Source of the DNA: an uncultured Campylobacterales bacterium
GTDB lineage: Bacteria; Campylobacterota; Campylobacteria; Campylobacterales; Arcobacteraceae
NCBI GenBank assembly: GCA_947503785.1
Contig: CANNFB010000002.1
Span: forward strand, 248,001-312,000
Length of the DNA stretch: 64,000 bases
Direction: 5' to 3'
The position numbers were made by a program, and so were the translations under genes. Below are positions 12,829-44,416 of this stretch, piece by piece (the stretch's first letter is position 1; every line of letters starts with the position of its first letter). The notes beneath the pieces are model-generated. The model was given only the letters and a program-made list of their open reading frames with translations. It was not told the origin of the DNA and made no database searches.

Positions 12829-12882
12829 GATTATTTCCTTTTCTTTTCATATTATTTGAATAGTATGTCAGATTTAAACTTA

Positions 12883-13070: not shown

Positions 13071-13114
13071 ACTTTGTATATTTTTTCATCATCTTACTGA
13101 AAAATATACAAAGT
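13071..13114 (-). terminator. Terminator-like hairpin downstream of the pyruvate dehydrogenase operon
   Basis: ACTTTGTATATTTTT ... AAAAATATACAAAGT, perfect 15-bp inverted repeat with 14-nt loop. Confidence 0.6.
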
Positions 13115-13130
13115 TATTGAAAATATCTTG

Positions 13131-14894: not shown

Positions 14895-14902
14895 CTCTAC
14901 TC

Positions 14903-16597: not shown

Positions 16598-16607
16598 CTT
16601 TTACTCC

Positions 16608-19280
16608 TTAGGCATTTAATGGATTGATTCTTGTAGGATCAATATTATGTTTTTTCATAGCTTCGGCTACCACTGATTTTTCAATTTTACCATTTCTAGC
16701 AAGTTGTGCTAATGTAGTAAATACGATAAAGTCTGTATCAACTTCAAAGAATGATCGTAAATTAGCTCTTGAATCTGATCGTCCAAAACCATCTGTACCT
16801 AATGCTTTAAATGAACCTTTTACAAATGGAGCAATTTGCTCAGAGTAAGCTTTCATGTAATCAGTTGCAGAGATAATGATATTTTCATCATCACTTCCTA
16901 GTACTTGATCTACATAAGCTATTTCATCAACTACATCAATATTTAACAAGTTATCTCTTTCAACATTTTGTGCTTCTCTTGTTAATTCATTATATGAAGT
17001 AGCAGAATAAAGTTCAGATGCAATTCCATAATCAGATGCTAATATTTCAGCTGCATGTCTAACTTGCTCTAAAATAGTACCAGAACCTAATAATTTAACT
17101 TTATAATCATTTTTAGCTTCGTAAGTTGCGAATTTATAAATACCTTTTAAAATACCTTCTTCAACACCTTCTGGCATCGCAGGTTGTTTATAATTTTCAT
17201 TTAATGTTGTTAAGTAGTAGTAAATATCTTCTTGTTTTTCACCATACATTCTGTTCATACCATCTTGAACAATAACAGCAACTTCATATCCATATGTAGG
17301 ATCATAAGTTACACAAGAAGGAACAGTATTCGCAATAATATGAGAATGTCCATCTTCATGTTGTAAACCTTCACCATTAAGTGTCGTTCTACCAGATGTA
17401 CCACCTACTAAGAATCCTCTAGCTTTTTGATCAGCCGCAGCCCAACACATATCACCAGTTCTTTGGAATCCAAACATAGAATAGAAAATATAGAAGGGAA
17501 TCATAGGACAATCATTTACAGAGTAAGATGTAGCTGCTGCTGTCCAAGAACCCATAGCACCAAGCTCATTGATACCTTCTTGAAGTACTTGACCTTTTTT
17601 ATCTTCTTTGTAATAAGCAACTTGATCTTTATCTTGTGGGATATATTTTTGACCTTCGTTCGCATAAATACCTAATTGTCTAAACATACCTTCCATACCA
17701 AATGTTCTAGCTTCATCTGGAACAATAGGAACAATATTTTTACCAATTTTTTTATCTTTAACTAAGATATTTAAAACTCTTACAAATGCCATAGTTGTAG
17801 AAATTTCTCTATCTCCAGAACCTTTTAGTACAGCTTCAAATTTATCCAGTGTTGGAATCTCTAAAGTTGCAGAGAATTTTTCTCTTCTTTGAGGTACATG
17901 ACCATGTAACTTTTGTCTATGTTCTTGCATATATTTATACTCAGGAGAATCTTCATCTGGTCTATAATATTTTAAGTTGTCAACATCTTCATCAGAAATT
18001 GGAATAGCAAATCTATCTCTAAATTGTCTTAATACAGATGTGTCCACTTTTTTAACACCATGAGCAATATTTTTACCCTCAGCAGCTTCACCCATACCAT
18101 AACCTTTAACAGTCTTAGCAAGAATTACAGAAGGCACTCCTTTCGTATCATTTGCTTTTTTATAAGCAGCGTATACTTTTACAGGATCGTGTCCACCTCT
18201 GTTTAATTGCCAAATTTCATTGTCACTCATATTCTCAACAAGTTTTGCAGTTTCAGGATATTTATTAAAGAATTTTTCTCGTGTGTATGCTCCACCTTTT
18301 TGTTTAAAGTTTTGATACTCACCATCAACAGTTTCTTCCATTAGTTGAAGTAATTTACCAGATGTATCTTGCGCTAAAAGTTCATCCCATTTTCTACCCC
18401 ATACTACTTTAAGAACTTGCCAACCAGCTCCTCTAAATTCACTCTCTAACTCTTGAATAATCTTACCATTACCACGTACAGGACCATCAAGTCTTTGTAA
18501 GTTACAATTAATAACAAATACTAAGTTATCTAAACCTTCTCTTCCGGCTAATCCAATTGCACCTAAAGATTCTGGTTCATCACACTCACCATCACCCATG
18601 TAACAATATACTTTTTGCTCGCTACAATCTTTAATCCCTCTATCTGTAAGGTATTTTAAGAATCTAGCTTGATAAATTGCTTGAATTGGTCCTAGTCCCA
18701 TTGATACAGTTGGAAACTGCCAATATGAAGGCATAAGCTTTGGATGTGGATATGAAGATAAACCATCAGCAAATGCTTCTTGTCTAAAATTATCCATTTG
18801 TGCTTCTGAAAGTCGACCTTCTACAAAACTTCTAGCATATATACCTGGAGAAATATGTCCTTGGTAAAATACTAAATCCCCTCCATCTTTTTCATTTGGT
18901 GCTTTAAAAAAGTGGTTAAATGCAACATCATATAATGTAGCAGATGATTGGAATGATGCAATATGTCCACCAAGCTCTAAATCTTTTTTAGAAGCTCTTA
19001 AAACCATAGCTTGCGCATTCCATCTAATAATTGATCTTATTTTTCGCTCTAAGTCTCTATCACCTGGCATTTTTGGTTCTTGATTAACAGGTATCGTATT
19101 TAAGTATGCTGTATTTCCACTATGCGGAATATCCGCACCACTTCTTCTTGATTTATCAATAAGTTTTTCAAGTAAAAAGTGAGCTCTTTCAACACCTTCT
19201 TCATCAATAACTGCCTCTAATGCTTCCATCCATTCTTCTGTCTCTAATGGATTAATATCTTCTAAATTTAACAACGACAT
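16608..19280 (-). CDS. aceE: Pyruvate dehydrogenase E1 component (homodimeric type)
   Basis: DFK/ThDP-binding GDGECDEPESLGAIGLAGREGLDNLVFVINCNLQRLDGPVRGN; PDEARTFGMEGMFRQLGIY. Confidence 0.96.
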   Translation of the reverse strand: MSLLNLEDINPLETEEWMEALEAVIDEEGVERAHFLLEKLIDKSRRSGADIPHSGNTAYLNTIPVNQEPKMPGDRDLERKIRSIIRWNAQAMVLRASKKDLELGGHIASFQSSATLYDVAFNHFFKAPNEKDGGDLVFYQGHISPGIYARSFVEGRLSEAQMDNFRQEAFADGLSSYPHPKLMPSYWQFPTVSMGLGPIQAIYQARFLKYLTDRGIKDCSEQKVYCYMGDGECDEPESLGAIGLAGREGLDNLVFVINCNLQRLDGPVRGNGKIIQELESEFRGAGWQVLKVVWGRKWDELLAQDTSGKLLQLMEETVDGEYQNFKQKGGAYTREKFFNKYPETAKLVENMSDNEIWQLNRGGHDPVKVYAAYKKANDTKGVPSVILAKTVKGYGMGEAAEGKNIAHGVKKVDTSVLRQFRDRFAIPISDEDVDNLKYYRPDEDSPEYKYMQEHRQKLHGHVPQRREKFSATLEIPTLDKFEAVLKGSGDREISTTMAFVRVLNILVKDKKIGKNIVPIVPDEARTFGMEGMFRQLGIYANEGQKYIPQDKDQVAYYKEDKKGQVLQEGINELGAMGSWTAAATSYSVNDCPMIPFYIFYSMFGFQRTGDMCWAAADQKARGFLVGGTSGRTTLNGEGLQHEDGHSHIIANTVPSCVTYDPTYGYEVAVIVQDGMNRMYGEKQEDIYYYLTTLNENYKQPAMPEGVEEGILKGIYKFATYEAKNDYKVKLLGSGTILEQVRHAAEILASDYGIASELYSATSYNELTREAQNVERDNLLNIDVVDEIAYVDQVLGSDDENIIISATDYMKAYSEQIAPFVKGSFKALGTDGFGRSDSRANLRSFFEVDTDFIVFTTLAQLARNGKIEKSVVAEAMKKHNIDPTRINPLNA

Positions 19281-27832: not shown

Positions 27833-27859
27833 AACTAAAGTATAACTTTAGTTCTATTT
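27827..27859. terminator. Bidirectional hairpin overlapping the ends of purT and the convergent CDS
   Basis: AAATAGAACTAAAG-tataa-CTTTAGTTCTATTT, perfect 14-bp stem. Confidence 0.7.
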
Positions 27860-28931
27860 ATATTTTAAAAGAGCAAGAATAAGCCATACCTTCATCTTCA
27901 ATAGTATTTACATCAATTGTAGCACCTATCATAGTTGCTAAATTTTTCGCTTCAATAATATATTTGTTTTCCGTATCAGAAAGAAAGAGAGTATGAATAT
28001 TCTTCACTTCAAACCCATTATTTTTAACTACTAATTGAATAGTCTTTTTATGCTTAAAAATACTCACTTCAATTAGTTTATTAATCTTCCCTTTTTTCAT
28101 CTCTTTTTTTACTAAATCCATACATGATTGTTCAATAAAAGATGAGATAATATTTTCAAGATAAAGAATATTCATTTCTACTTCTTTTCTTAAATTTAAA
28201 TCTAAGTTATAATCTAAAGATATTCTATATCTAAAGTTTGCATAAATATAATTATCAGATCTTCTTTTATGTAATTCAAGTAAATAGTTAAGAACAGTAA
28301 AATCTTTTACTTGCTCACTTTCTTTATCAAAGTTGTTGATTACATATTCAAACTTTTTTAATTCTTCAAAATGTAAGGCAAAAGTATCGATGAGTTCAAA
28401 AATAAATGTACTATTAATTAAGTCTTCTACACCTAGTTTATTTAAATATTTATCAACAATTGTAGTATCAAACATTGTTACTAAGTATTTTAAATTAAAA
28501 ATTTTGTTCTTGATATTTGATAGAGTTTGAACATCTCTTAAAAGTTTCTTTTTAGATGCAGTAGGAATAACTTTAGTTTCTAAGTCCATTTCTAATAAAT
28601 CTAAAAAATTCTTATCATCATATATTAAATTTACAGTTTCAATCTGGCTTGATTTATTACACTCTAATAATAAAACCTTCATATATTCTTTAACAAGCTC
28701 TAAAGATTGATTTAGTTCAGAAACTATTAAAAGAATTTTATTTTGCATCAAATCATGTTGGTCATTTAGTATTTGTCGATTTAATTTTGTTTTTCCACCA
28801 TTTTCACTTATTAATATTTCATCAAAGATAAATAACTTATTAAAAATATCTGTAAAAGGCTTTATTTCTTCAGAAATATTTTTTATATGATGATTTACTT
28901 TTTCATTACATTCATCTACTATATTAGTCAA
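27858..28931 (-). CDS. Hypothetical protein with possible degenerate HATPase-like C-terminus (last gene of pilus-like locus)
   Basis: Helical N-terminal ~270 aa; C-term VVKNNG...YIIEAKNLATMIGATIDVNTIEDEGMAYSCSFKI weakly resembles GHKL ATPases. Confidence 0.5.
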   Translation of the reverse strand: MTNIVDECNEKVNHHIKNISEEIKPFTDIFNKLFIFDEILISENGGKTKLNRQILNDQHDLMQNKILLIVSELNQSLELVKEYMKVLLLECNKSSQIETVNLIYDDKNFLDLLEMDLETKVIPTASKKKLLRDVQTLSNIKNKIFNLKYLVTMFDTTIVDKYLNKLGVEDLINSTFIFELIDTFALHFEELKKFEYVINNFDKESEQVKDFTVLNYLLELHKRRSDNYIYANFRYRISLDYNLDLNLRKEVEMNILYLENIISSFIEQSCMDLVKKEMKKGKINKLIEVSIFKHKKTIQLVVKNNGFEVKNIHTLFLSDTENKYIIEAKNLATMIGATIDVNTIEDEGMAYSCSFKI

Positions 28932-28940
28932 AATTATACC

Positions 28941-29969
28941 TTATCGACAATTTTCATCTTCTACTAATAAATTAGTATCTACAAGTTGAACCCAATTTGA
29001 GTCATTATCTACAACCATTACATCACCAGATTTCTTTTTATAAATAGTGTCTAAATGTAACCAATTTGCTCTTTTCGCTTGAATAGTAAATTGATCATTA
29101 ATTTTTAAAACTCTTAAAATTGTTGCATTTAAATCATTTGTATTTCTTACATTTAATTTACTTTTATTTACTGTATATAAACATGCAGATAAATCTTTTT
29201 TTATAGTATTGTTTTTTATATTTGCAAAAGATTCTTTTACACTGTAGTTTTTTGCTTCTTTTACTACACTTATATCTTCTATTTTTTTACTTTCTTTTTT
29301 CTTTTCTTTTTTTACTACTTTTTCTATCTCTACTTTTGCTTCTTTCTTTAAATCACTTACAGATATTCCATAATTATTTAAATAAATCACATAACCATAA
29401 TCTTCATCAACTTTTTTATATAACTTGATAGTTTTTGTTCTTACATCAATTTTTATGATTTTATGACCTAAAATACTGTCACCTCTTACATATCTACCTT
29501 CAATATTAGAACTTAATTCACTATCTGCTTTTGCTGTACTTTTTTCATCAACTTTTAAGATTACATAATCTTTCCCATTAAAAGAGTACATACTTTTTAT
29601 TTTGATATCTTTTAATTTTTTAGTTCTTGTAAAATCACTAGTTAATCTAGCCATTTCATTTTGATGTTTAAATACATTTTTCTCATAATCTTCTTGTGAA
29701 ACTTCAAGTTTTTCAACATAAATACCTTGAGTACTTGTATTTGAATTCACATTCTTATTATTAGGATTAGTAGTTTTATTTTGAATTGAATCAATTTGTT
29801 CTTCTAGATAATCTTTTTCAAGTCCAGTTATACTTTTAAAAAAATTTTTTGATTGTTGGTCTAAAACATCTAATTTATCAACATTATCCATACTTTCTTT
29901 ATTTACTTCTTGGGCATATAAATTAATAACTGTAAAAATAAATACAATAATTAAACTAATTCTCTTCAT
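28941..29969 (-). CDS. Secreted/periplasmic pilus-locus protein with C-terminal SH3-like region
   Basis: Signal peptide MKRISLIIVFIFTVINLYA; C-term KLNVRNTNDLNATILRVLKINDQFTIQAKRANWLHLD; ATG at 29969 with AAGGAA RBS preferred over 30020. Confidence 0.6.
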   Translation of the reverse strand: MKRISLIIVFIFTVINLYAQEVNKESMDNVDKLDVLDQQSKNFFKSITGLEKDYLEEQIDSIQNKTTNPNNKNVNSNTSTQGIYVEKLEVSQEDYEKNVFKHQNEMARLTSDFTRTKKLKDIKIKSMYSFNGKDYVILKVDEKSTAKADSELSSNIEGRYVRGDSILGHKIIKIDVRTKTIKLYKKVDEDYGYVIYLNNYGISVSDLKKEAKVEIEKVVKKEKKKESKKIEDISVVKEAKNYSVKESFANIKNNTIKKDLSACLYTVNKSKLNVRNTNDLNATILRVLKINDQFTIQAKRANWLHLDTIYKKKSGDVMVVDNDSNWVQLVDTNLLVEDENCR

Positions 29970-29988
29970 TTTTTTCCTTTTAAAACTT

Positions 29989-32247
29989 TTACTTAAATAT
30001 GAATTCATAATTAAATCCACCTATATATGTTGGGTATTTCATAAAGAAATATTTATCTTCAACTCCATCTTTATCAGTTTTCATTATAGAAAAAGGATAA
30101 TCTTCAACAAAAAGAAAATCTTTATCTAAGTCAAGTAAATTAGAATTAAATATTGGTAGCATAACAGTATTCCCAATTCTGGATTGAGTTTCACCATTAG
30201 AGCCTTGATAAAAAACCATTTGACCCCAACAATACATTTGATTTTCAGTACTAATTCCACACATACCATTTTGATCTTCAATCATACGTATTATTTTCCA
30301 ATCAATATCGTTAATAGCATTTTTGAATAAAGTTTCTTCTTCAGTAGTATATGTATTTAATTTATTTATTTTTGTAAAATAATCACCTTTTAATTGATTT
30401 TTACTATTAACCCAAATAATGCCTTTTCCATAACTTTCATATTCTACTATGCTGCCACCAGCTTCAGCTTTACTTGAAATATCAACAGAAAGAATTTCAC
30501 CATCCACTGCTGCATCATAATCAATATGAGATTCAATTAAAGTACTGATATTCTCAACTTTTGCATCTTCATCTTTAGCTTGAGATATTTTATAAAAATT
30601 TCCATTAGCATCTTTTGCTATAACTGTTTGTTGTCCTGCAAGTATTGATTCAAAAGTTATGTCACTTTTTACAAGCTTTGGTTTACATAAATTAGCAGTT
30701 GAACAATTATTTCCACCTATTTGGCTATCCGTTCCCCATGTATATATTTCACCTGTCGTACTTAATCCCACCATTCTTCTAAAGCCGACACTAATCGTGT
30801 AGGTTAAATCTTTAAATTTTATATTAGTTGCCAGGAGAGTTGGTTCCTCGTTAGATTCGCTATCAGAGGCTCCAGTATAGCCCAATGTTGTATGATTTTG
30901 TCCCCAATAATAAATATATCCATCATCTGAAAGAACAAACCATGATGATAAAAGAGAAAATACTCTTTTGGCACGTTTTGTTATTTTTATCTTTCCTTCA
31001 ACAACTGTCTCAGTATTTGTACCATCGAAAAAAACACTTCGGTGAAGAATTTCAGTATTCTTTTTTATATCCCTATCATATCCTTCAAAGTCTATAAAAG
31101 TTTGATTAAGAACATAATCTCCAGCACAATAAAGTTCTCCTTTAGCAGTAATTGCACAAGTACCATGATAAACATCTGATGTAAAATCTACAAATTTAGG
31201 TCGTAAAGGAGAAGAAAAATAATTTTGATTATATAATTCATTATATACTATATCAGCAGCATCAATCTTCCCATCACCATTATTATCAACATTTTTCTTA
31301 CCATAAAGCCTTGATTTAGCTTTAACTAAAACACTAATCACTGCTTTACTATTTCCTATTGTACCATTTGCTGTACGATAAGTATTATTTCCAATACTAA
31401 CACCTTTGAGAACATTATTACCCCAAGTGTATAAATCACCATTTACAATCATTCCACCAGCACGTCTAGAAAACTTTAAAATTGTTTCTCCAATATCTCT
31501 GATAGTTCCACCTAATTTAACAATACCTACATCTCCACCAATATTAATATATTCTTGTGCTATTTCATCTTCCATATTAAATATTTGCTGGCCTGGAGAT
31601 AAAATCTTGTTATTATCTATAATTGTTTTAAAGGCAGGAGCAATTCCACCGACTAAATCAGTTCTACTTAAATCTTCGTAAATAATTAAACTTTTATCTA
31701 AAGAATAAACTAAGGTATCTCTATTATACCAATGAAGAACTCCATCATCATCTAAATAATACATACTTGTAGTTGTCGATTTTGCTGTATCTTCATCACT
31801 TGTAACTTCACTAGCTAAAGATAGAATATACGTTTCTTTAATAGAAAAAGAGATAGAAACATTATGATTTTTTTTGCTAAGAGGTGCTTTTGAATAAGTT
31901 CTGTTTTCATTTGAATAGTATTTATCATATAGTGCTGATTTTACATTTGAAGGTATTGAACTTATTATATAAGTTTTAGTATCATCTAAAGACATTGACC
32001 CTCCAAATAAATTTGAATTATTAAAGCCATTTGGTAAATAAGTTTTTAGACTTGTACTTTCTGAACCTAGTATTGAAGTTGGTTTTGAAGCTTTTGTCAG
32101 AACATATTTTTTATATGCTTTAGCAATTTGTTCTTCTTTTTTTATTACTTTTTTTATTTTTGATAAAGAAATGGTATCAAAGTACATCTCTTTTGAATAC
32201 AAAGTTATTGATAATAAACATATAATAAAAAGTTTAATAAAAATCAT
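29989..32247 (-). CDS. Secreted RCC1-like beta-propeller protein (pilus-locus)
   Basis: Signal peptide; RCC1-like blades LYTWGNN, CAITAKGELYCAGD, VLSDDGYIYYWGQN, GLSTTGEIYTWGTD, CGISTENQMYCWGQ; ends YPTYIGGFNYEFIFK. Confidence 0.75.
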   Translation of the reverse strand: MIFIKLFIICLLSITLYSKEMYFDTISLSKIKKVIKKEEQIAKAYKKYVLTKASKPTSILGSESTSLKTYLPNGFNNSNLFGGSMSLDDTKTYIISSIPSNVKSALYDKYYSNENRTYSKAPLSKKNHNVSISFSIKETYILSLASEVTSDEDTAKSTTTSMYYLDDDGVLHWYNRDTLVYSLDKSLIIYEDLSRTDLVGGIAPAFKTIIDNNKILSPGQQIFNMEDEIAQEYINIGGDVGIVKLGGTIRDIGETILKFSRRAGGMIVNGDLYTWGNNVLKGVSIGNNTYRTANGTIGNSKAVISVLVKAKSRLYGKKNVDNNGDGKIDAADIVYNELYNQNYFSSPLRPKFVDFTSDVYHGTCAITAKGELYCAGDYVLNQTFIDFEGYDRDIKKNTEILHRSVFFDGTNTETVVEGKIKITKRAKRVFSLLSSWFVLSDDGYIYYWGQNHTTLGYTGASDSESNEEPTLLATNIKFKDLTYTISVGFRRMVGLSTTGEIYTWGTDSQIGGNNCSTANLCKPKLVKSDITFESILAGQQTVIAKDANGNFYKISQAKDEDAKVENISTLIESHIDYDAAVDGEILSVDISSKAEAGGSIVEYESYGKGIIWVNSKNQLKGDYFTKINKLNTYTTEEETLFKNAINDIDWKIIRMIEDQNGMCGISTENQMYCWGQMVFYQGSNGETQSRIGNTVMLPIFNSNLLDLDKDFLFVEDYPFSIMKTDKDGVEDKYFFMKYPTYIGGFNYEFIFK

Positions 32248-32738
32248 TTTTTAATATCCTTTGCCTTTGATATATAATTTACAAAATAAATAGTATTGTT
32301 CTTCTCACTTTTTTTCATCTCACCTAAATAAGATAAAATACCCTCTCCTGCTTTTAAGCCTTCTTTACTTCTGGCTGTTAATTGCGTAACTATAATATAA
32401 TTATCTATACACATTTTTTTAGAATTTAAAAACTTTAGATTATAATCTAAAACTGACATTCTTTTATAAATATCTTTTATTTTACTATCTATTTCTTCTT
32501 TTTTAATATATTTAGATTCAATTTCCACCATTTTAGCTTTTGTCTTTACAACTTTTCTTTTTAAACTAAGTGTTTCTTGCTTTTTAATTTGAAGTTCTTT
32601 TGTGAGTTGTTCTTTTTCATAAACTAATTTAAAAAAACTTGCTAATTTAAAAAAGAAAAATCCAATAAGATATGCAACAAATATAAATAAACCTACTTTA
32701 ATAATTAGTTTAAATCTCTTATTATTAATACTAATCAT
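32244..32738 (-). CDS. Single-TM coiled-coil inner-membrane protein (PilO/GspM-like)
   Basis: N-terminal TM then long coiled coil; operon position between ATPase and RCC1-like genes. Confidence 0.45.
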   Translation of the reverse strand: MISINNKRFKLIIKVGLFIFVAYLIGFFFFKLASFFKLVYEKEQLTKELQIKKQETLSLKRKVVKTKAKMVEIESKYIKKEEIDSKIKDIYKRMSVLDYNLKFLNSKKMCIDNYIIVTQLTARSKEGLKAGEGILSYLGEMKKSEKNNTIYFVNYISKAKDIKK

Positions 32739-33487
32739 TTATTCACCTTATTAGGAGTAATACAATCAGTTAATTCCCTGTATTTTTTATCTGTTCTATT
32801 TAATAAGATTTTCTGTCGATGTATTAATCTTTTTTCTATTTTTATTTCTCTTTTTAGTTTTTCTAAAGGCTCTTTATAAATATATTTCTTTGTTAGTAAA
32901 TCTAATCCAAAAAACATAACCCAAACAATTAAAATTACAAATAGTAATATAAAAATATTTTTTCCAAAGTGTGATTTAAAAGTATCTAATTCATTTAAAG
33001 GTTTTATTAATTCTTCAACATTTCCTAAACTATATGCAATTTCTTCATCTTTCTCATTTTTAGTATTTTGTTTAAGAATATTTTCAACTGCACTTTTATA
33101 TTTTGAACTAATAACATAGTAGTATTTTTTAATACTTCCACCACTAGAAAGCATTGCTATATGTTTAGTAATCAGAATGGATTTTATTATATCATCAGTA
33201 ATGAAGTTTTGATTTATTTTTGCAGAATATACAGTTTTATGATTAAATAAAATAAAGTACTCACTATCTGTAATATGAACTAATAGTTGATTTTTATTTA
33301 GATATTCTCTTGATAGTAAATTTAGAGAATATATTTTATCTGTGATTTCATATTTGGATAAATATACACTATGCTTTTTAAAAGATTCGTATGTAAACAT
33401 TTTTTGAGAAATGTCAAAATCATCTTTAAGGTAGAAAGTTTCATTGTCTTCTTTAGTTGCAAAATCTGTAACTACTAATCGTACCAT
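32735..33487 (-). CDS. Inner-membrane pilus accessory protein (PilN/GspL-like position)
   Basis: Cytoplasmic-like N-terminus then TM NIFILLFVILIVWVMFFGLDLL, coiled-coil tail; overlaps ATPase gene by 13 nt. Confidence 0.45.
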   Translation of the reverse strand: MVRLVVTDFATKEDNETFYLKDDFDISQKMFTYESFKKHSVYLSKYEITDKIYSLNLLSREYLNKNQLLVHITDSEYFILFNHKTVYSAKINQNFITDDIIKSILITKHIAMLSSGGSIKKYYYVISSKYKSAVENILKQNTKNEKDEEIAYSLGNVEELIKPLNELDTFKSHFGKNIFILLFVILIVWVMFFGLDLLTKKYIYKEPLEKLKREIKIEKRLIHRQKILLNRTDKKYRELTDCITPNKVNK

Positions 33488-35142
33488 ACTTCCTCCCCTT
33501 TGATAATTGCTGTTGCATCTGCTTTTGTAATAAGTCCTGCATTATATTGTGCCATACAAGCTTTTTCAACTGTCATATATTCAGCTGGGTTTTCAAAGTC
33601 ACCACCAAATCCTAATTTGAATCTAATAACCTCAGCGATTGGAACCCTATCTTTAAATCCACTATTATTACATTCCTCACAACCAACTTTTTTATAGCCA
33701 CCTTCTCCATCTTCTTCTTTACAGAAATCACAAAGTTTACGAACTAACCTCTGAGATACAATACCTCTTAAGTTATCTACTACATCTCCTTCATTAATAC
33801 CTAATGAACTAGTCATTCTTGATACTGTTGCAGGTGCTGAGTTGGTATGCATAGTAGAGAATACCAATTGACCCAAGTTTGATGCATTTACTAATTGTGA
33901 TGCAGTTTCTGGCTCTCTTGTTTCCCCAATAAGAATAATATTTGAATCTTGTCTTAAAATATCAACTACGGCTTCAGGGTAACCATATTTAAACTCTTCA
34001 CTAGCACTTGCAAACTCTGACAAGTCAATTTGGAAGAAAGATTCATCCACATACTCAACTGGATCTTCAATAGTAATTACATATTGCTGTTGTTTAGCAA
34101 GTTCTTGTAGTAATGCGTACATTAAATGTGTTTTACCAGAACCTACTTGACCAGTAATTAAAATCATACCATTTGAGTATTTTGTTAAGTTATCAAGAAT
34201 ATCGACTGTTTCGCTAGGATAATTAAGTCCTCTTAAGTTATGAGAAACTACACCTTTACCACCAATCATTCTCATTACAAGCGAAAAATTTAGTTTAGAG
34301 TTAATAAGACCAAGTCTAAATTTAATATTTTTCTTTCCATAATCATAATTAATTACACCGTTAATTGATTCAAAATCAGAATCTTCTTGATCTGCCATAG
34401 TAACAAGTCTTCTTTTAATTGTTTTTGCAATTGCAATTGGCATTGTTCCCATATCAACTTTAATACCATCAATTCTAAACCATAAAGAAGCAAATCTATT
34501 TGTTTTTTGAATATGTATATCTGAAGCACCCAATAAAATTGCTTGTCCCATCATCTTGTCAAAGTACTTATTAATTTCCTCATCATTATCAGTATCTGAT
34601 GAAGAGCCAAAGATAATCTCTCTATCTTCTCCAAATACTGAAGATAATACACCCTCACCTAAAACAACAATTTTTGTAAAGTAAAACTTACTTAATACAT
34701 CAAAATCTAAGTTTACAACATCTCTAATACCTAGAACTTTATTTTTTGTCTTTTTATCTTCAAGAGTAATAATATACATTGTTGTACAAAACTCTAGCTT
34801 TCTTTCATCTAATTGAAATGATGTATCTTGATATAGCTTTGATAGTTCGTTATAAGAAGCATAATACTCATAACCTAAGCTTCTTACAAATTCTGCATAT
34901 TTTGATTCATTTGCAATTAAATCAGAATAACCACCAGAAAAATTAAATTTTTCTTTTATCACATCTTCAATAAGAGTAGACAAGACAGTATCTTTTTCTT
35001 CTTCTTTATTTATATACTGAGTAAGTGCTGTTTTTTTTTCTTCAAAAAATTCTTTTATATTAATTTTTTTGTTTTTTTTGCTTTTTTTATTAAATAAAGA
35101 AAGGTTTCTTGATTTATATCTTTTGATTAATTTTTTTATCAT
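33475..35142 (-). CDS. GspE/PilB-family secretion/assembly ATPase
   Basis: Walker A ITGQVGSGKTH, Asp box VITIEDPVEYVDESFFQID, Walker B IILIGETREPETA, His box LVFSTMHTN, tetracysteine CDFC...CEEC. Confidence 0.93.
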   Translation of the reverse strand: MIKKLIKRYKSRNLSLFNKKSKKNKKINIKEFFEEKKTALTQYINKEEEKDTVLSTLIEDVIKEKFNFSGGYSDLIANESKYAEFVRSLGYEYYASYNELSKLYQDTSFQLDERKLEFCTTMYIITLEDKKTKNKVLGIRDVVNLDFDVLSKFYFTKIVVLGEGVLSSVFGEDREIIFGSSSDTDNDEEINKYFDKMMGQAILLGASDIHIQKTNRFASLWFRIDGIKVDMGTMPIAIAKTIKRRLVTMADQEDSDFESINGVINYDYGKKNIKFRLGLINSKLNFSLVMRMIGGKGVVSHNLRGLNYPSETVDILDNLTKYSNGMILITGQVGSGKTHLMYALLQELAKQQQYVITIEDPVEYVDESFFQIDLSEFASASEEFKYGYPEAVVDILRQDSNIILIGETREPETASQLVNASNLGQLVFSTMHTNSAPATVSRMTSSLGINEGDVVDNLRGIVSQRLVRKLCDFCKEEDGEGGYKKVGCEECNNSGFKDRVPIAEVIRFKLGFGGDFENPAEYMTVEKACMAQYNAGLITKADATAIIKGEEVWYD

Positions 35143-35151: not shown

Positions 35152-36168
35152 TTATTGGTACAATGTTTTAAAAGTAAATGTACTTATAACTAAATTTATA
35201 ATATCTGAACCTATTATTACTGTAACAAGCATAGCTATTAACCAAAAAAGAAGTCTCCATTGAATAACCATATATGCAATGTTCTTTTCATACATAGTGT
35301 CACAAGTTTGATATAAAGCTTTTGTTACATCAGCAAAACTTGTTTGACTTAATTCTGATAGTTTAATATCAGCTGTTATTAATGGAGGGAAATTATACTT
35401 TTCAAAAACTAAAAATAGCTTTTTATTCTTACTTATAATATCAGCTAATTCTCCAAAAAAAGGACGTAAACCTAATTTGAAATAATCTTTTGAAAGAATT
35501 AATGATGTCTTATGAAAAGAAATACCAGCACTTAACATTCCATTTAGAATCCTAAACATAAATCTACCATCTGAGTAACATTGTGTTTTAAATACTTTGT
35601 ATAACCATGCGGGCTTATATTTTTCAGTATATACATATCCTAAGAATATAAATAGGGTCACAAAAATTGAAACTCCAAGCCCTAAATATGCAAATTCATA
35701 TGTAAAGTATCCAGGAACACCCAAAAAAGATTCTACATCAGAATTTAGTTTTCGTAATCCTATTAAATCTTTTTCAAGCATTCCTAAATATAAAATCAAG
35801 CCATAAAAAGAAAAAATGATAATTGATAAAGGTACAAATATAGGATTAATCATTTTAGGTAAGAGGTTTGAGTTTGCTTTAGCAAAGGATTGGACTAATT
35901 TTAAACCATCTACGGTATTAGTACTATTTACTACTAAACTATATTGAAAATCGTTTAAAAACTTATTTTTATGTAAAATCGCTTCTAGCTTATGCTTTCC
36001 GATTTCCATATCTTTAATAGCAGCCTCAAGTCTTTTTTTAAATCTTGTCTCTTTTGTAATTTGTTCTTTGTATAAAAGTAAAGCTTTTCTAGTATTAGAT
36101 CCATTTTCTAATTTTGTTACTAGATAATCTAGTAAAAATTGTTCATAAGGATCAGCAAACATACTCAT
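35152..36168 (-). CDS. GspF/PilC-like inner-membrane platform protein
   Basis: Three predicted TM segments; RFMFRILNGMLSAGISFHKTSLIL GspF-like motif. Confidence 0.7.
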   Translation of the reverse strand: MSMFADPYEQFLLDYLVTKLENGSNTRKALLLYKEQITKETRFKKRLEAAIKDMEIGKHKLEAILHKNKFLNDFQYSLVVNSTNTVDGLKLVQSFAKANSNLLPKMINPIFVPLSIIIFSFYGLILYLGMLEKDLIGLRKLNSDVESFLGVPGYFTYEFAYLGLGVSIFVTLFIFLGYVYTEKYKPAWLYKVFKTQCYSDGRFMFRILNGMLSAGISFHKTSLILSKDYFKLGLRPFFGELADIISKNKKLFLVFEKYNFPPLITADIKLSELSQTSFADVTKALYQTCDTMYEKNIAYMVIQWRLLFWLIAMLVTVIIGSDIINLVISTFTFKTLYQ

Positions 36169-36170: not shown

Positions 36171-37826
36171 TTAGAAGCCTTTAATACTTTGTACAGAAAC
36201 AACATATACTATTTCTCTTCTTATATAAGATTTTGAATCACTTCCACCAATAGCAAAGCCTTCTAAAGGAAGAATACCTTCATACTCTTTTGCATCATCA
36301 TGAACAATAATCGAACCAACAATAGAAGTTTCTCCAACTTTTATTTCTCTTGAAATATTATAACTTTGATCTTTATACTCTGGTAATTGAATTGTTGCAT
36401 CTCCAACTTTAGCTTCAGAAATTTTTATTAGTTTTTTAATATTTGGTGTAATATTTAAAAATAGTTTATCCCTAGATATCTTTGCCATAGCAGTTATTGA
36501 AGTACCATCTTTAATAGTATTTACAGTAGCTTCTGATGTTGTTACATTGTCATTTACTGTTGTTTCAATTTTTTCTATATAATCTGTATTTTGACTAATT
36601 GATTGAACAGATGGAATATTGTTTTTTAATACCATAACATTTTTACTATAGTTTAATATTTTTCCTATTTCATTATCTATTGTTCCCGTAACTTCTAGAA
36701 GTCTTGTTGTTCCTTGATTAAGAAAGGAAAGTGCTCCTTCTGTTGCTAAAGATTTTGTAATTCCTGTTGATGTTGAAGGACCTGCTGTTCTTTTTATTGA
36801 ACCAATACCATATTCTCTACTTTTGTTTAAAACTAATTCAATTCTTTCAAATACAATTGTAGCTTCTCTTGCAAAACTATCTTCATATGCTTTTGCAATA
36901 GTTCTAACAGTTGCTTCTACACTTTTTGTAGCCTTCATAAAAATAAGGCCACTTGCTTTATCGATATGATATGTAGAAATAGTATCATTTCCAATTATAT
37001 TTTTCATCATTTTATCTAGTTCATCATAGAGTATTATTTCTGAACTATTTTCAACTTTACTTTCACCAGTTGTTTCACTTGATGATGTTTCGTTTGATGT
37101 TGTGATATTTAATAAAGGAATATTTAGTTCAACAACAATATCTTTATATCTTTTTATATTAATCATCTCTTTATCATAATCAATATCTACATAAACATTT
37201 TTAGCATGTCCTAAAGAATCAATAGCATTTATTAAATTCTTTGATTTTATTGAAACAATACTATTTTGAAAATCATCTTTATTTTTAATATAATTTCCAA
37301 TTGAAACCTCATAACCTGATTGGGCAGTAATTAGTTTGATTAATTCTTCTACTGAGATTTGACCATCTAAATTAAAAGGAATATCTTTAATAGATTGTTT
37401 TTTAGTTTCACTTGAACTTAAAAGTTTTACTAAATATATTGACCCACTTTTTTTAATAAAAAGTTCTTTATCAAGTACGGCGTTTAAATACTGATTTAAT
37501 TCTGCCATATTATGAATTTTCATTCTACTTTTAGGTACTAAAATATCACTACTTTTTAAATAGTAAAAATTGCCATCAATAAGCTCTAGCTCTTTTAAAA
37601 CATCACTTAATGATTTATCACTTAAGATATTTATAAACTCTTTATTTCTATTTTTTTCATCTACTAGTTTTTCAGAGTAAGAGTTTCTTACTTCCTCATA
37701 ACTTTTTTCATTTACTATTTTTTTTGCCTCGGCTGTCATTTCATTGTGATAACTCTTATTTGAACAAGCACTAGCTAATATAATAATTGACATATAGAAG
37801 ACAGATATTTTTAATATTTTTAACAT
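36171..37826 (-). CDS. Lipoprotein secretin (type IVB pilus PilN/BfpB-like)
   Basis: Lipobox IILASAC; C-terminal secretin-like beta domain ...DKLFLNITPNIKKL...IQLPEYKDQSYNISREIKVGETSIVGSIIVHDDAKEYEGILPLEG. Confidence 0.75.
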   Translation of the reverse strand: MLKILKISVFYMSIIILASACSNKSYHNEMTAEAKKIVNEKSYEEVRNSYSEKLVDEKNRNKEFINILSDKSLSDVLKELELIDGNFYYLKSSDILVPKSRMKIHNMAELNQYLNAVLDKELFIKKSGSIYLVKLLSSSETKKQSIKDIPFNLDGQISVEELIKLITAQSGYEVSIGNYIKNKDDFQNSIVSIKSKNLINAIDSLGHAKNVYVDIDYDKEMINIKRYKDIVVELNIPLLNITTSNETSSSETTGESKVENSSEIILYDELDKMMKNIIGNDTISTYHIDKASGLIFMKATKSVEATVRTIAKAYEDSFAREATIVFERIELVLNKSREYGIGSIKRTAGPSTSTGITKSLATEGALSFLNQGTTRLLEVTGTIDNEIGKILNYSKNVMVLKNNIPSVQSISQNTDYIEKIETTVNDNVTTSEATVNTIKDGTSITAMAKISRDKLFLNITPNIKKLIKISEAKVGDATIQLPEYKDQSYNISREIKVGETSIVGSIIVHDDAKEYEGILPLEGFAIGGSDSKSYIRREIVYVVSVQSIKGF

Positions 37827-37835: not shown

Positions 37836-40700
37836 TTACTTAAAATAAAACTCATAATCGAACCCTCCAATATAAGTAGGAAATTTAAGATGTAAATTTC
37901 CATCATTATTAAACTTATCATATGACATAGGGATTTCTTTATCCGATTCTTCTGTAATAAATAATTTATTTATACTGTTTATTTTATCCATATCATATAA
38001 AGATGTACTTAATATAGGAATACTTCTAGCTATATTTCCCCAACAATACATTTGGGACTTAGAACCAAATCCTGTCATTGCACATACAAATTTTTTGTTT
38101 GTTTCTTTAACTTTTATTTTTACATTATCAATTCCCCAAGATTCATTTTCTACATCTTCATTATAACTTCCTTGATAATAAGTACGAGAATAATGATTAG
38201 CATAAGGAAGATCATATTCAAACTGAGTTTTAAACTTTAAAGTAACATTTCCGGAAGAATCTAGCTTTGATCTTAATTTATAGCTATAACTCTGGTCTCC
38301 TGCATAACCTGTATTAGGATTTATATTATCTTGTAAGTTAATACCCGTAATATTTGTATCTTTTAAAGTCTCATGCCAATCAAAAATAAAGTGATCCACA
38401 GATAAAAGTTCACCATTTGCATAAACTTCAAATCTTTCACCATCCCAAGTATCTATTTCATAAAAATCAAATTCGATATCAATCTCATGATTCGGATAAG
38501 ATGGAAAGCTATAAGTTTTACTAACTTCATAATAATCTTTTGTTTCATTTACTGCAATAGGAAATCTACCTAGAAAATCAGTAGAGGGAAGTTGCGTTTG
38601 AGTATCTGTTTGATCAAGATCAACTGTAGTAATCATATTGTTATCACTAGAATTAGTAGCTGTCCAACCACTTGTAGCTGTTTCAAAATTTTCAGATTGG
38701 GTACTTAATACTCTATCTAATTTAAAAATGCCTGCATTAGTGAACGTAGCATACATCTTTCCCTTTATATTATTCAATTTTGTATTTAATTGATTAAAAG
38801 CTAATGTAAATATGTCATTACTATTATCATCATTATTACATTCATCAATTTCATTGGCTTTCATACATTTAAGTAATTCAGGACTTCCCTTTAATTCTAA
38901 ATATTCATTTATATATGTAAAAAAATTACCATAAACAGAAACACTTATCGCAGTATTTGGAATATTTAGTTTTTTAGTGCTATTACTATTTGTTGTTTGA
39001 TAAAAGAAATTATCAAGTCCTTTTAATACAAACTCATTTGTATTTATAAAAATTGCATCTTCGTTATACCTTCTATTATCATTTAAACGTGTTGGCTTGT
39101 TATAAATTTCACCATTTGGTCTTCCTCCCCAAATCCAAAAATAATTTTCCTCATCAATAGCTCCAAATCCTCTAATATCTCTAAGAGCAAAGATTTTTTT
39201 AAAAATTGTACTGCCATTGATTTTTGAAGGTGTTGTAGATATGATAAACTTATCACTACTTCCAATTCCTAAAGCACCTTTATAATTTCGTCCAAAAGTA
39301 TAAATGTCTCCTGTATCAGATAAAACAGCTGCAGTATCTTCAACCATTACAATATCTTTTAGATATATTTCATTACCATCATTTGTTTTATCTTCTTTGC
39401 CTATTCCAAAAAATATATTTTTTTTCAAAATAGAAGTTGATTTAACAGTAGATGATAAATCTTCAAAATATGAAGAAGAAATATTTCCATTACAAAATAA
39501 ATCTCCTCCAACTTTTTGACTAAATTCTTCATCTGGATCTAGAAATATTGGCGAAATAGCACATACATTTGTACTATTCATTGCCATTTTTTCAAATTTT
39601 ACTCTATATGGATTGTTATACCAGTTTTTAGCATGCCGTGTAGACTCAATTCCATTATCATCCGTATATTTTTTTGTTTTATCTATTTGAGCTTTTAACA
39701 TTATGGGAGTATTTACATAATCAGGTTTTAATGTTTTATCAATTTGCCCATAACTTTCAATTCCTACTTTTTTATATTTATTATTACCCCAACAAAAGAT
39801 ATCACCATTTGCAAGCATGCATCCTCCATCTTGCCTAAAAACTAAATCTTTAGAACCGGGGATATACTTAAGTATCAAGTCTTCTAAATCTTGACTTTCA
39901 TCAGCTTCATTTACATCTGAACCTAAATATACAGCAACCCAAGGAAGATTTGTGTCACCTTGATAATAGTATTCATACCATATACCATTTTTCTTTGCGT
40001 ATGCTTTGTCTCCTATTTTTGCTTTTATATATTTTAATTCACTTGAATCTTCTACATAAATAGGAGAATCTTGATATACAGTAATAGGATTATCAACAGT
40101 TTTACAATACTTGTAAGTTAATTCTTTTCCTTTTAACTCATAATAATGAGTATTTACTACACAGTCTTGACTATCAAGTTTTATTGTATTATTACTTGAT
40201 AAATTAACTGTTTGTACTATTTCTTTTTGAATTGAAGAGTAAAGAACTTGAGAACCTATTTTTAGTTTTTCTACTGTTGTATCTATTGGTGCTAAAGTAT
40301 TTACTCTAAATATTCTACTTGCATAAAAATTATATAAATATTTTAAATCTTCATCGTATGAAGATTCTGGCTCTTCCAAAGTTCCTATATTAGCAACAAC
40401 TCCCCGAATAAAAAAGTTGTAAGTTTTAGGCTCATAATAAACATCGATATCATCAGAAGTTAATAGATTCTTTCTATTAAAGAGTTCACCTAAATAATCT
40501 TTATGTTCTAATTTTTCCCAATCTAATTTATTTGAATCTGTTTTAGGAATAGTTCCTGTTTGTAATATATATTTATTAATTGCCAAAGCAATATATTCTT
40601 CTTTTTGAATAACACTTTTTAGGGCATTCATCCTAGATATATTTAGACTATTTGCAAAACTGATGTTTATTAATAATAAAACAAAAAGTAAAAATCTCAT
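37836..40700 (-). CDS. Large secreted RCC1-like beta-propeller protein with inserted LamG/jelly-roll-like domain
   Basis: Signal peptide; CMLANGDIFCWGNN, VLSDTGDIYTFGRN, MYCWGN blades; insert EIDIEFDFYEIDTWDGERFEVYANG...ESWGIDNVKIKV; ends FPTYIGGFDYEFYFK. Confidence 0.75.
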   Translation of the reverse strand: MRFLLFVLLLINISFANSLNISRMNALKSVIQKEEYIALAINKYILQTGTIPKTDSNKLDWEKLEHKDYLGELFNRKNLLTSDDIDVYYEPKTYNFFIRGVVANIGTLEEPESSYDEDLKYLYNFYASRIFRVNTLAPIDTTVEKLKIGSQVLYSSIQKEIVQTVNLSSNNTIKLDSQDCVVNTHYYELKGKELTYKYCKTVDNPITVYQDSPIYVEDSSELKYIKAKIGDKAYAKKNGIWYEYYYQGDTNLPWVAVYLGSDVNEADESQDLEDLILKYIPGSKDLVFRQDGGCMLANGDIFCWGNNKYKKVGIESYGQIDKTLKPDYVNTPIMLKAQIDKTKKYTDDNGIESTRHAKNWYNNPYRVKFEKMAMNSTNVCAISPIFLDPDEEFSQKVGGDLFCNGNISSSYFEDLSSTVKSTSILKKNIFFGIGKEDKTNDGNEIYLKDIVMVEDTAAVLSDTGDIYTFGRNYKGALGIGSSDKFIISTTPSKINGSTIFKKIFALRDIRGFGAIDEENYFWIWGGRPNGEIYNKPTRLNDNRRYNEDAIFINTNEFVLKGLDNFFYQTTNSNSTKKLNIPNTAISVSVYGNFFTYINEYLELKGSPELLKCMKANEIDECNNDDNSNDIFTLAFNQLNTKLNNIKGKMYATFTNAGIFKLDRVLSTQSENFETATSGWTATNSSDNNMITTVDLDQTDTQTQLPSTDFLGRFPIAVNETKDYYEVSKTYSFPSYPNHEIDIEFDFYEIDTWDGERFEVYANGELLSVDHFIFDWHETLKDTNITGINLQDNINPNTGYAGDQSYSYKLRSKLDSSGNVTLKFKTQFEYDLPYANHYSRTYYQGSYNEDVENESWGIDNVKIKVKETNKKFVCAMTGFGSKSQMYCWGNIARSIPILSTSLYDMDKINSINKLFITEESDKEIPMSYDKFNNDGNLHLKFPTYIGGFDYEFYFK

Positions 40701-41408
40701 TTAATCCACCTTTACAATATCTGTAACAGTTTTTATATATTTACCACTATTATTTACAAAAATAAAGGTACCAACATTTAATTTATCTAGTTTTACACTT
40801 GATAGAAGTCCACTTGTACTTACAGTCACATTACCTTCTTCAAAATCTTCATTATTGTATTCAATCCAATTTAAATTAACATCATACCATCTAATTGTAT
40901 TTAAATTTGTAATACAATAACTCTCTTTTAAAGGAGCATCACAGTCACTTGTAATAGTAGAACCTGTTTCTAAAATTTCTAAAATATTCTCTGCAACTTT
41001 TGATTTTAATTCAAAAGAAACATAAGAATTACTTAGAGTATCTTTATCTTTATAAACAGTTGTCATATCTCGATATAAATCTCTTTCATATAAAGCAGTA
41101 ACATATAACTGCAAATTTTCTTGAGTAATTGCATATTTTATTTTTAAATTCTCACCCGAAACAAAATCTATATTAGAACCAAATTTATTTGTACTTGTGA
41201 AATTACTTCCTAAATACTCATCTATTTTTAATTTATCAAGAGTTGGAACTTCAAACTTTTCTAATAAATATTTTTCAAAATTACTTGCTATTTTTTCTTC
41301 TACTTCTATTAGGTTTTGTACGTATAACACATTTTGTTGTTGTACTACTAATGTATCTTTTGCATTTAAAAAGCTATAGAATAAATATAGTATTATTAAT
41401 ATTTTCAT
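40701..41408 (-). CDS. Secreted protein sharing the pilus-locus N-terminal module
   Basis: Signal peptide; LIEVEEKIASNFEKYLLEKFEVPTLDKLKIDEYLGSNF. Confidence 0.6.
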   Translation of the reverse strand: MKILIILYLFYSFLNAKDTLVVQQQNVLYVQNLIEVEEKIASNFEKYLLEKFEVPTLDKLKIDEYLGSNFTSTNKFGSNIDFVSGENLKIKYAITQENLQLYVTALYERDLYRDMTTVYKDKDTLSNSYVSFELKSKVAENILEILETGSTITSDCDAPLKESYCITNLNTIRWYDVNLNWIEYNNEDFEEGNVTVSTSGLLSSVKLDKLNVGTFIFVNNSGKYIKTVTDIVKVD

Positions 41409-42148
41409 TATTTCACCACTTCTATTGAATCTCTTGTTTTTATATATTTTACAGCTTCTGTATCATATAAAAGTGCACCTTTAGGAATTGAAGTAAACTC
41501 ATCATTAGAGTGTAATCCAGTATCTTTTGTGATTATAATTGGACCTGTTTTAAACTTTTCTACTGAATAGTACATTAGAAGTTCAGCTGCATTTTGAGTC
41601 TCATCTTTATAAATATATATTACATTTTTATCTTCAAGTTCTTTATTCCAACAATATTTTTTCTTTGGAATATCTCCACATTTAATTAGATTAAATCCAG
41701 CAGTTGAACTTAAAAAATATAAATGATTTGCAAAATCATCTTCAAGTTTTATTCCTATTTTATCACTATCATAAAAATAAGTTTTTTTTCTAAATAAGTC
41801 ACTTTCATACAAGTTTTTTATACTTACATCATTTTCTAATGCTGTACCTTTTAATCTATTATTTATTTCTTTTTTAAAGCCAAAATCTGTTATTGATGCA
41901 ACTTCTCCAACTACAAATGGTGTTAAGGAGAAAGCTGTTCCTAGATATTCATCTGTTTTTAAGTTAGAAAAAGTTGTCGGTAGTTTTTTTGTATTTAGAA
42001 TATAGCTTTCATAAGCACGGGCTATTGATTCTTCTTCTTGAATAATCGTTTTTACTTTTAAAAACAATTCCTGCTGTGCTATATACACAGCATCATCTGC
42101 ATTTAAAATGTTTAGTGTTAAAAAAAATGTTAAAAGTATTTTTATCAT
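41408..42148 (-). CDS. Secreted protein sharing the pilus-locus N-terminal module
   Basis: Signal peptide; IIQEEESIARAYESYILNTKKLPTTFSNLKTDEYLGTAF; 1-nt junction with downstream gene. Confidence 0.6.
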   Translation of the reverse strand: MIKILLTFFLTLNILNADDAVYIAQQELFLKVKTIIQEEESIARAYESYILNTKKLPTTFSNLKTDEYLGTAFSLTPFVVGEVASITDFGFKKEINNRLKGTALENDVSIKNLYESDLFRKKTYFYDSDKIGIKLEDDFANHLYFLSSTAGFNLIKCGDIPKKKYCWNKELEDKNVIYIYKDETQNAAELLMYYSVEKFKTGPIIITKDTGLHSNDEFTSIPKGALLYDTEAVKYIKTRDSIEVVK

Positions 42149-42903
42149 AATTCATCTTTCAAGAGGTAATATAGTTTTGTTTCCATAGCATTTTTATTTA
42201 AAATCAATTCTTCTTTTATTCTTTTTTTAAAAAACTCTTCTTTCCTCAACTTTATTTTTTCAGGAGTTAATTCTGCTATATCTGAATCTTTTCTCATATC
42301 TTGGTAAATATCATTATATGGAGTATATTTTCCAGATACGAGGCCTTCACCTATTACAGTTTTTAATACTGCATCAAGATCAACACTTGCTGTTGCATAC
42401 AAAATAGCTGTACTTAAATACTCTATCGCTTTTGCTACACTTTCTTCAATAGATATATTTTTATTTACAATATTTTTATCTTTTTTACCAACAATAAAAG
42501 TATGTGTTCCCTCACTTACATTTTCAGTATTTCTATCTGATAAGTTATTTAGTTTTGCTCTTAAAGCAAAAAGTTTTAACTGTTCACTTTCATTTAATAC
42601 AAAATTACCATCAACATCGACTAAAGCATCATTTGCAAGTGTACTAGAACTATTTCGGTCTAAAAGCAAAACCTTTTCCCAGTTTCCACCAGCAGGTAAA
42701 TGCATTATAATTTCATCACGTGTTACTTCATCTGGATTTTTATTGTATTGCTTGGCTAATAATGTTTTTATGTCAGATATAATTTGATAGTTTTCTTGAA
42801 TTTGTTTAGCTTCTTGAGTATCAGAATATGATTTATATACAGAAGATGCTGAAAATATAGCTGTAACAATTAGTGCTGATGATAGCCATATATTTCCTAA
42901 CAT
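42145..42903 (-). CDS. Pilin-like protein with N-terminal hydrophobic helix
   Basis: MLGNIWLSSALIVTAIFSASSVYKSYSDTQEAKQIQENYQIISDIKTLLAKQY; pilin-like hydrophobic then amphipathic helix. Confidence 0.5.
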   Translation of the reverse strand: MLGNIWLSSALIVTAIFSASSVYKSYSDTQEAKQIQENYQIISDIKTLLAKQYNKNPDEVTRDEIIMHLPAGGNWEKVLLLDRNSSSTLANDALVDVDGNFVLNESEQLKLFALRAKLNNLSDRNTENVSEGTHTFIVGKKDKNIVNKNISIEESVAKAIEYLSTAILYATASVDLDAVLKTVIGEGLVSGKYTPYNDIYQDMRKDSDIAELTPEKIKLRKEEFFKKRIKEELILNKNAMETKLYYLLKDEL

Positions 42904-43006: not shown

Positions 43007-43792
43007 TTATTCTACGATTGTTTGAGGCATATCTTTAAAGTAAATTGTAAAGATTCCATCATCCAATGCTGATGTAGCCGTTCCCTTATTACCAGCTGCA
43101 TCTACAACTCCTGCAGGTCTATTTCCAACAGGAACTTCTCCATCTGCTAATAAATCAACAGCAGATCCATCAATTGTTGTTCTATCAATTCCTGCTACTG
43201 CTTGTAAATCTGTAGCAATTTGACTTTCTAAAAATGCAGCATTACCTGCTAGCGCATTTAATAATTGAACTCTAATACCAGGTCTAGTAGCTGAATCACC
43301 AACAACCATACTTAAATTCATTCCAGGGTTAGTCTCTCCACCAAAAGAAATCGCAGAATAAGTATTTTGCTGACCGGCTGTATTAGTAGTAGCATTGTAC
43401 GCACTAACAGTTGTTGCATTATTACCAATTTCATCATTCATTTGATCAGCAAAATAACCTAAAACAGCTAATCCTATTAGTGTACTATCTCCTGCAGGTA
43501 TAGCAGCTCTTGCTGGTATTGCATCAACTGGAGCAACATAGTCAGTATCTCCAGGAGTTCCAACTTCTGCAACCGCAGCAACTGCTGCTTGTGAAGCAAC
43601 TGCAATAACAGATTTCTCTATATCTCCAGCTCTAACTGCTAACTGTAAACCATTTCTAATATTATTAATTTCTGTAATAATACTTGTTTTTTGTGCGATA
43701 CCTTCAATCTTATCACCTGTTCCACCAAATGTTTGGAACATATAAATCATTGCTCCAACTACTACGATAACCATTGCTATTAACTGTGGCAT
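43007..43792 (-). CDS. Pilin-like protein, leaderless (candidate major pilin)
   Basis: MPQLIAMVIVVVGAMIYMFQTFGGTGDKIEGIAQKTSIITEINNIRNGLQLAVRAG; RBS AAGGA; in-frame stops just upstream exclude a longer leader. Confidence 0.6.
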   Translation of the reverse strand: MPQLIAMVIVVVGAMIYMFQTFGGTGDKIEGIAQKTSIITEINNIRNGLQLAVRAGDIEKSVIAVASQAAVAAVAEVGTPGDTDYVAPVDAIPARAAIPAGDSTLIGLAVLGYFADQMNDEIGNNATTVSAYNATTNTAGQQNTYSAISFGGETNPGMNLSMVVGDSATRPGIRVQLLNALAGNAAFLESQIATDLQAVAGIDRTTIDGSAVDLLADGEVPVGNRPAGVVDAAGNKGTATSALDDGIFTIYFKDMPQTIVE

Positions 43793-43876: not shown

Positions 43877-44416
43877 TTACTTAAATACTATACAAACAAA
43901 CGAACCATCACTAGTTGTTCCATCTACATCAAAAGTTTCTGCTCCAGCTGTAGAGTCATAGGTCTTTCCATTAACTTGAAATGTTCCAAATAAAGTTTTT
44001 TCACAAAACTCTCTACCTGAAAAACTCTCAGAGAAAATAGCCTTACTCATCAATCCTGCACTTCCAGTCATATTAACTAATAGTTTATATGAATTACTAA
44101 TAACTATAGGATTGCGATTTGGTATTATCTGCCAAACAACATTATTATTAGGCAACGTTAATGTTGAGGCTAAACCTACTCCATTAACTGTTGAATTGCT
44201 TAGTAATACTCCTGAAGTATCAAGTTCTTCAAAATTGATATCAGTTAAATCACCACCACTATCAACATAAGTATTAACAAATCCATCCACCATTGAAAAC
44301 ATCACTTTCATGTTCGCAAGCTCTGCTTTTATAGTACTATCATCTGCTTCATATCTTGTAAGTAAAAGTGTCAAAGCTGCAACAATAGCGATAATAGATG
44401 CAACAATATATGGCAT
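43877..44416 (-). CDS. Pilin-like protein, leaderless, with C-terminal Cys pair
   Basis: MPYIVASIIAIVAALTLLLTRYEADDSTIKAELANMK...; CEKTLFGTF...SFVCIVFK; RBS AAGGAAG. Confidence 0.6.
   Translation of the reverse strand: MPYIVASIIAIVAALTLLLTRYEADDSTIKAELANMKVMFSMVDGFVNTYVDSGGDLTDINFEELDTSGVLLSNSTVNGVGLASTLTLPNNNVVWQIIPNRNPIVISNSYKLLVNMTGSAGLMSKAIFSESFSGREFCEKTLFGTFQVNGKTYDSTAGAETFDVDGTTSDGSFVCIVFK

Follow-up and report, generated by a model that had tools for sequence, protein, structure and literature searches.

The recognition and loading of large tip proteins on type IV filaments are known for very few systems. Among the closest described parallels are TcpF and CofJ, which are secreted by type IVb pili and hook a short, extended N-terminal segment into a trimer of minor pilins (TcpB/CofB); CofJ uses a Gly–Gly–Ala–Phe segment, which is contacted through its main chain (PMC9565799). 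In Saccharibacteria, PilX2 has been described as carrying a C-terminal RCC1 propeller, lacking a PilD signal and being required for pilus function, and has been proposed to be an adhesin (PMC12206443). In type IVa pili, PilY1 – a large secreted β-propeller protein – is described as priming the pilus together with minor pilins (PMC7541494, PMC12206443). At the level of the machine itself, the nearest relatives are the bundle-forming and R64-type type IVb pili, with their secretins BfpB and PilN.

The locus considered here resembles each of these in part. It lies in a 64,000-nucleotide stretch of DNA (the window) from an uncultured member of the Arcobacteraceae, to which all coordinates refer unless another locus is named. 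A run of minus-strand genes, leading from 44416 down to 27858, holds two propeller proteins (P1 and P2) together with pilin-like, accessory and machine genes, in the order 179-, 261-, 252-, 246- and 235-aa proteins, P2, secretin, F, ATPase, O, P, P1, an SH3-like protein and a cytosolic protein. In the literature, we found no paper on this locus in Arcobacter or on such a machine in Arcobacteraceae.

The secretin (36171–37826), a lipoprotein of the BfpB/PilN/MshL kind with an invariant lipobox cysteine (C21), matches BfpB from the PDB over 248–543 in a profile comparison (5e-20), as well as the NCBIfam models MshL (1.4e-9) and PilN (1.8e-6), both significant yet below their curated cut-offs. 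The ATPase (33475–35142) belongs to the GspE/PilB family (Pfam T2SSE, 2e-65), while the GspF/PilC-like inner-membrane protein F (35152–36168) is assigned from a weak Pfam match (T2SSF, 0.018), synteny and 73–95% conservation within the family. Subunit O (32735–33487) has a soluble part and one transmembrane segment, occupies the PilO/PilL position and is syntenic nearly everywhere; subunit P (32244–32738) has a transmembrane segment and a coiled coil. They are followed, beyond P1, by a syntenic secreted protein with an SH3_3-like domain (28941–30020, with a true start probably near 29966; Pfam SH3_3, 0.0017) and, at the end of the operon, by a cytosolic protein (27858–28931), which has no meaningful Pfam match and whose ending resembles, by eye, a histidine-kinase-type ATPase domain. 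On the combination of a BfpB-type secretin with a PilB/GspE ATPase, the locus is classified from its sequence as a type IVb-pilus-like machine. It shares with the bundle-forming and R64-type pili the BfpB-homologous secretin lipoprotein, the PilB-class ATPase and a compact operon, and differs from them in having pilin-like proteins without prepilin leaders, a putative propeller tip module and further subunits that match no known family clearly.

The pilin-like proteins deserve separate attention. The 261-aa protein (43007–43792, minus strand), which begins MPQLIAMVIVVVGAMIYMF and is the probable major pilin, and the 179-aa protein (43877–44416, minus strand), which has an invariant pair of cysteines, start directly at the hydrophobic helix (MPQLIAM... 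and MPYIVAS...), so that neither open reading frame has the prepilin leader of type IVb pili. In about 20 genomes in which the start of the 261-aa family can be read, an in-frame stop lies 1–18 codons upstream, with no ATG, GTG or TTG in between. By hhalign, the 179- and 261-aa proteins are homologues (E 1.5e-6); they have no match in Pfam or NCBIfam, and their hhalign comparison with canonical pilins of distant relatives is not significant, but their architecture and gene position fit type IV pilins. Distant relatives with the same machine core have canonical prepilin leaders, and a prepilin peptidase (PF01478) is encoded elsewhere in the window's genome and was found in 16 of the 16 genomes checked. 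A leader-independent type IV filament is possible on this evidence. With its apparent absence of leaders, the locus offers a test of whether a type IV filament can manage without prepilin processing, and the leaderless pilins may perhaps be more surprising than the C-terminal tail to which we now turn.

The tail belongs to P1 (752 aa, 29989–32247) and P2 (954 aa, 37836–40700). Both open reading frames exist with the endings reported in the first-pass annotation, on the minus strand, which had gone unmentioned; at both places, the plus strand is broken up by numerous stop codons. Each protein consists of a signal peptide, an N-domain, an RCC1 β-propeller and the conserved tail, with about seven RCC1-like units and a variable linker before the tail in P1. 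Their identification as RCC1-like propellers has been borne out by Pfam matches above the curated cut-offs – RCC1_2 in P1 (8e-12, 45.0 bits against a cut-off of 22; also WD40_RLD, 3.8e-15) and RCC1 in P2 (1.3e-08, 35.7 bits against 21.7) – and by Foldseek, which matched the AlphaFold models to RCC1/UVR8 propellers (P1 to RCC1, 2.2e-10; P2 to RCC1-like folds, 1.1e-09), the models having low overall confidence (mean pLDDT 64.5 for P1 and 55.4 for P2) and shallow input alignments (9 and 7 sequences). The MYCWG motif, an RCC1 blade, is present in both proteins as first reported; the L-x-D-x-D-K stretch (LLDLDK/LYDMDK), which had been placed before it, actually follows it, between MYCWG and the tail. 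In P2, an extra β-rich domain is inserted before the last blade (about 38100–38690, minus strand; ...GWTATNSSDNN...DIEFDFYEIDTWDGERFEVY...ESWGIDNVKI), which resembles a module of the jelly-roll or lectin type.

The N-domain (minus strand; 31543–32190 in P1 and 39951–40649 in P2), modelled in P1 as a long N-terminal helix followed by an α/β domain, is shared, according to alignment, with two secreted proteins that consist of this domain only: the 235-aa (40701–41408) and 246-aa (41408–42148) paralogues. Profile comparison found no similarity between the N-domain and pilins, leaving its identification as a pilin unsupported. Together with the 252-aa protein (42145–42903), a putative minor pilin with an N-terminal hydrophobic helix, these N-domain-only paralogues belong to what we refer to as the accessory module, all three again on the minus strand.

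Compared by its published description, PilX2 may be a close counterpart in architecture, having a pilin-like N-terminal part and a C-terminal, RCC1-type, seven-bladed propeller; it comes, however, from another phylum and another type of type IV pilus, the part of the description on which we draw makes no mention of a C-terminal tail, and the locus studied here, unlike what is described for PilX2, has two propellers and two N-domain-only paralogues. P1 and P2 resemble PilY1 as large secreted β-propeller proteins, but they are built of RCC1 repeats, belong to a different machine with a BfpB-like secretin and have no PilY1-type Pfam match.

The last 16 residues are KYPTYIGGFNYEFIFK in P1 (29992–30039, minus strand; stop codon 29989–29991) and KFPTYIGGFDYEFYFK in P2 (37839–37886, minus strand; stop codon 37836–37838), as read from the translation and supported by conservation, synonymous variation and a pattern search of the window. 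In that search, a degenerate terminal pattern with up to three mismatches allowed gave two matches, both with no mismatch, against 0.00 expected from shuffles. Orthologues were collected from whole Arcobacteraceae genomes: 24 of P1 (the window's and 23 others) and 22 of P2 (the window's and 21 others). All of them have the motif or a close variant at their end, and the claim that it is strictly C-terminal and conserved has held, as each propeller orthologue with the motif has it at the terminus. In P1, the tail is the best conserved 16-mer of the whole protein (94% identity to the window's sequence, compared with a mean of 41%); in P2, the 16-residue stretch covering it is among the best conserved (85% versus 49%). 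The two paralogues are identical at a fraction of 0.77 of positions within the tail, versus 0.29–0.34 elsewhere. Among the orthologues of both genes, synonymous variation is seen at most codons of the tail, and the two tails of the window differ by six synonymous codon changes across their last 12 codons, which argues that selection acts on the protein sequence. Two other explanations are ruled out by this variation: that one paralogue was recently converted by the other, and that the downstream gene, which overlaps, constrains the nucleotide sequence. A chance match is ruled out by the conservation, the identity between paralogues and the shuffle expectation.

What the tail does is a matter of interpretation. 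The reading that we favour, and to which we give about even credence, is that P1 and P2 are tip proteins of the type IVb-pilus-like machine and that the tail is their C-terminal docking signal. A different role, which we consider doubtful although worth weighing, is that of an intramolecular strand without which the protein would not fold, whether it seals or caps the seven-bladed propeller in the manner of molecular velcro or lies against the N-domain. RCC1 propellers are indeed closed by terminal strands, P1 has about the right number of repeats, and the tail, with its alternating aromatic residues, is strand-like. Yet the P1 tail is better conserved than P1's own RCC1 blade signatures, and the paralogues share 77% of it compared with about 30% of the propeller against which it would pack. 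The spacing between the last blade and the end speaks in both directions: from YCWG to the end, P2 has an almost fixed distance of 70 residues, as expected of a built-in strand, whereas P1 has between about 57 and 92, a variation of about 35 residues, as expected of a tethered element. Propellers of a more distant relative (genome G052) end without such a tail. AlphaFold, for its part, did not fit the tail into the fold, leaving it unresolved at a pLDDT of about 24 in both models, in which the propeller is partly resolved; with alignments of 9 and 7 sequences, such a low value fits a flexible docking element and an unmodelled strand alike. A profile of the tail found only chance-level matches among solved structures.

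The same amphipathic, aromatic strand at the extreme C-terminus could also act between molecules, as a donor or polymerisation strand: by β-augmentation, P1 and P2 would complete one another, or the head of a pilin, to form a stalk or a cap at the tip. A short, conserved strand, DGxFVCIVFK, closes the 179-aa pilin-like protein, and DGxFTIYFK is found close to the end of the 261-aa one, but the likeness of the tail to these ends is short and of low complexity, and there are only two such paralogues per genome, so we regard this role as unlikely. Much less probable still, in our judgement, is an outer-membrane targeting signal, whether a look-alike of the β-signal read by BAM (G-F-N/D-Y-x-F) or a covalent sorting tag. 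The G-x-x-Y-x-F pattern of the tail does resemble the C-terminal signal of outer-membrane barrels; nevertheless, the last residue of P1 and P2 is Lys or Arg, not Phe, and both proteins contain propellers, with no predicted barrel. Nor do they have the transmembrane-plus-basic tail or hydrophobic helix of a covalent sorting tag. A comparison of both proteins with NCBIfam, C-terminal sorting domains included, gave no match at E 0.1, which rules out the LPXTG, PEP-CTERM, GlyGly-CTERM and T9SS CTD tags of sortase, exosortase and T9SS systems.

The docking reading finds its best analogue in TcpF and CofJ. Here, too, a secreted protein encoded in a type IVb pilus operon has, at one end, a short, extended stretch that includes a key aromatic residue, and Gly–Gly–Ala–Phe of CofJ may be set beside Gly–Gly–Phe of the P1/P2 tail, with no sequence relationship claimed. 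The differences are equally clear: the TcpF/CofJ signal is N-terminal and differs between species, whereas the P1/P2 tail is C-terminal, 16 residues long, nearly invariant and common to two paralogues, and the N-terminus of P1 and P2 is instead taken up by a signal peptide and the conserved N-domain. By analogy, the tail may work like the TcpF/CofJ signal, without P1 and P2 belonging to that family.

A further line of evidence comes from the distribution of the tail, for which the F subunit served as the marker of the machine. It is present in 15 of 397 Campylobacterota genomes; a DNA pattern for the core of the tail occurs in 12 of the 397, all of them among these 15. The co-occurrence by which the first-pass annotation had proposed to judge the motif was thus upheld (12 of 15 genomes with the machine, 0 of 382 without it; Fisher P about 1.7e-20, a value that ignores the shared ancestry of the genomes). 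Within the family, F was counted in 27 of 104 genomes and a tail-profile match (E ≤ 0.01) in 26 of 104, the matches in G044 and G052 being weak and not tails. The exception is G094, from the same genus as the window, which has an intact P1 with its tail, no F and few of the other locus genes. What survives in this locus (L047) is P1, P, the SH3 protein and the last gene, along with a truncated O that runs into unrelated sequence with a helicase-like frame; the remainder is absent, and the locus looks to be decaying.

Two relatives bear on where in the system the tail belongs. G050, a close relative, has the SH3 protein and the machine itself (two pilins, the secretin, F, the ATPase, O and P), but it lacks both propeller proteins, the tail and the 252-, 246- and 235-aa proteins, the last of which is otherwise present with the tail; G052 has two tail-less propellers and lacks the 235- and 246-aa proteins as separate products. 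A propeller-less core in one genome and tail-less propellers in another indicate that the tail belongs to the accessory module and not to the core exporter. They also divide the original suggestion of a sorting or assembly signal: an assembly signal fits best, while the idea of a sorting signal has to be restricted, a general secretion tag used machine-wide being ruled out. G044, G043 and G141 have distant relatives of the machine only.

On the docking reading, the steps that we infer – binding by the tail, its partner, the location at the tip and transport by pilus extension – would run as follows. P1 and P2, large adhesin or receptor-binding tip proteins, would be exported by Sec, and their N-domain and RCC1-type propeller would then fold in the periplasm. 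The tail, predicted to form a Pro–Thr–Tyr–Ile–Gly–Gly turn followed by an extended, aromatic-faced strand (F-x-Y-x-F-x-F), would bind a receptor at the tip, which is most likely built of the co-inherited 252-, 246- and 235-aa proteins because these come and go with the propellers. Growth of the pilus would finally carry the tip complex outward through the BfpB-like secretin. The two tails may bind related sites and not necessarily the same one, given that in three loci (L046, L049 and L050) the GG of the P2 tail has become NS, while P1 of the same genomes keeps GG; covariation of the two tails within genomes is weak (p 0.026) and confounded by phylogeny. If correct, the docking reading would mark out, within Arcobacteraceae, a family of pili tipped with propellers, and a short, near-invariant C-terminal signal on two diverged cargoes would provide a clean experimental handle that lends itself to deletion, reporter fusion and use as bait. 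A more far-reaching version – a leaderless, peptidase-independent filament that exports two RCC1 tip proteins through a secretin by means of a C-terminal cargo-loading code common to different cargoes – we put forward only tentatively.

More broadly, eight loci were confirmed among 84,980 species genomes scanned, in Poseidonibacter, Aliarcobacter, Arcobacter and uncultured Campylobacteraceae MAGs. No viral or plasmid relative of the locus was found, nor any motif in viral contigs. Of the 24 loci compared, 15 adjoin purT, a pattern suggesting vertical inheritance accompanied by losses; cargo of a phage or another mobile element is ruled out by this neighbourhood and by the absence from viral contigs and plasmids.

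Individual loci show some further features. In L050 (genome G015; 9784–12116 of that locus), an inserted open reading frame of 400 aa, perhaps a transposase, interrupts the F gene, and the machine is probably inactive. L093, the locus of G050 (10117–17616), is a minimal machine without propellers or small accessory proteins; beside it, on the opposite strand (17654–18775), lies a gene for a protein of 373 aa that shares the leaderless pilin N-terminus and continues into a long extension at the C-terminus. Finally, just upstream of the operon in the window, a GGDEF protein is encoded on the minus strand (44727–45530), and one is also found beside the L034 locus; with such a gene next to two loci, c-di-GMP may be linked to control of the pilus.
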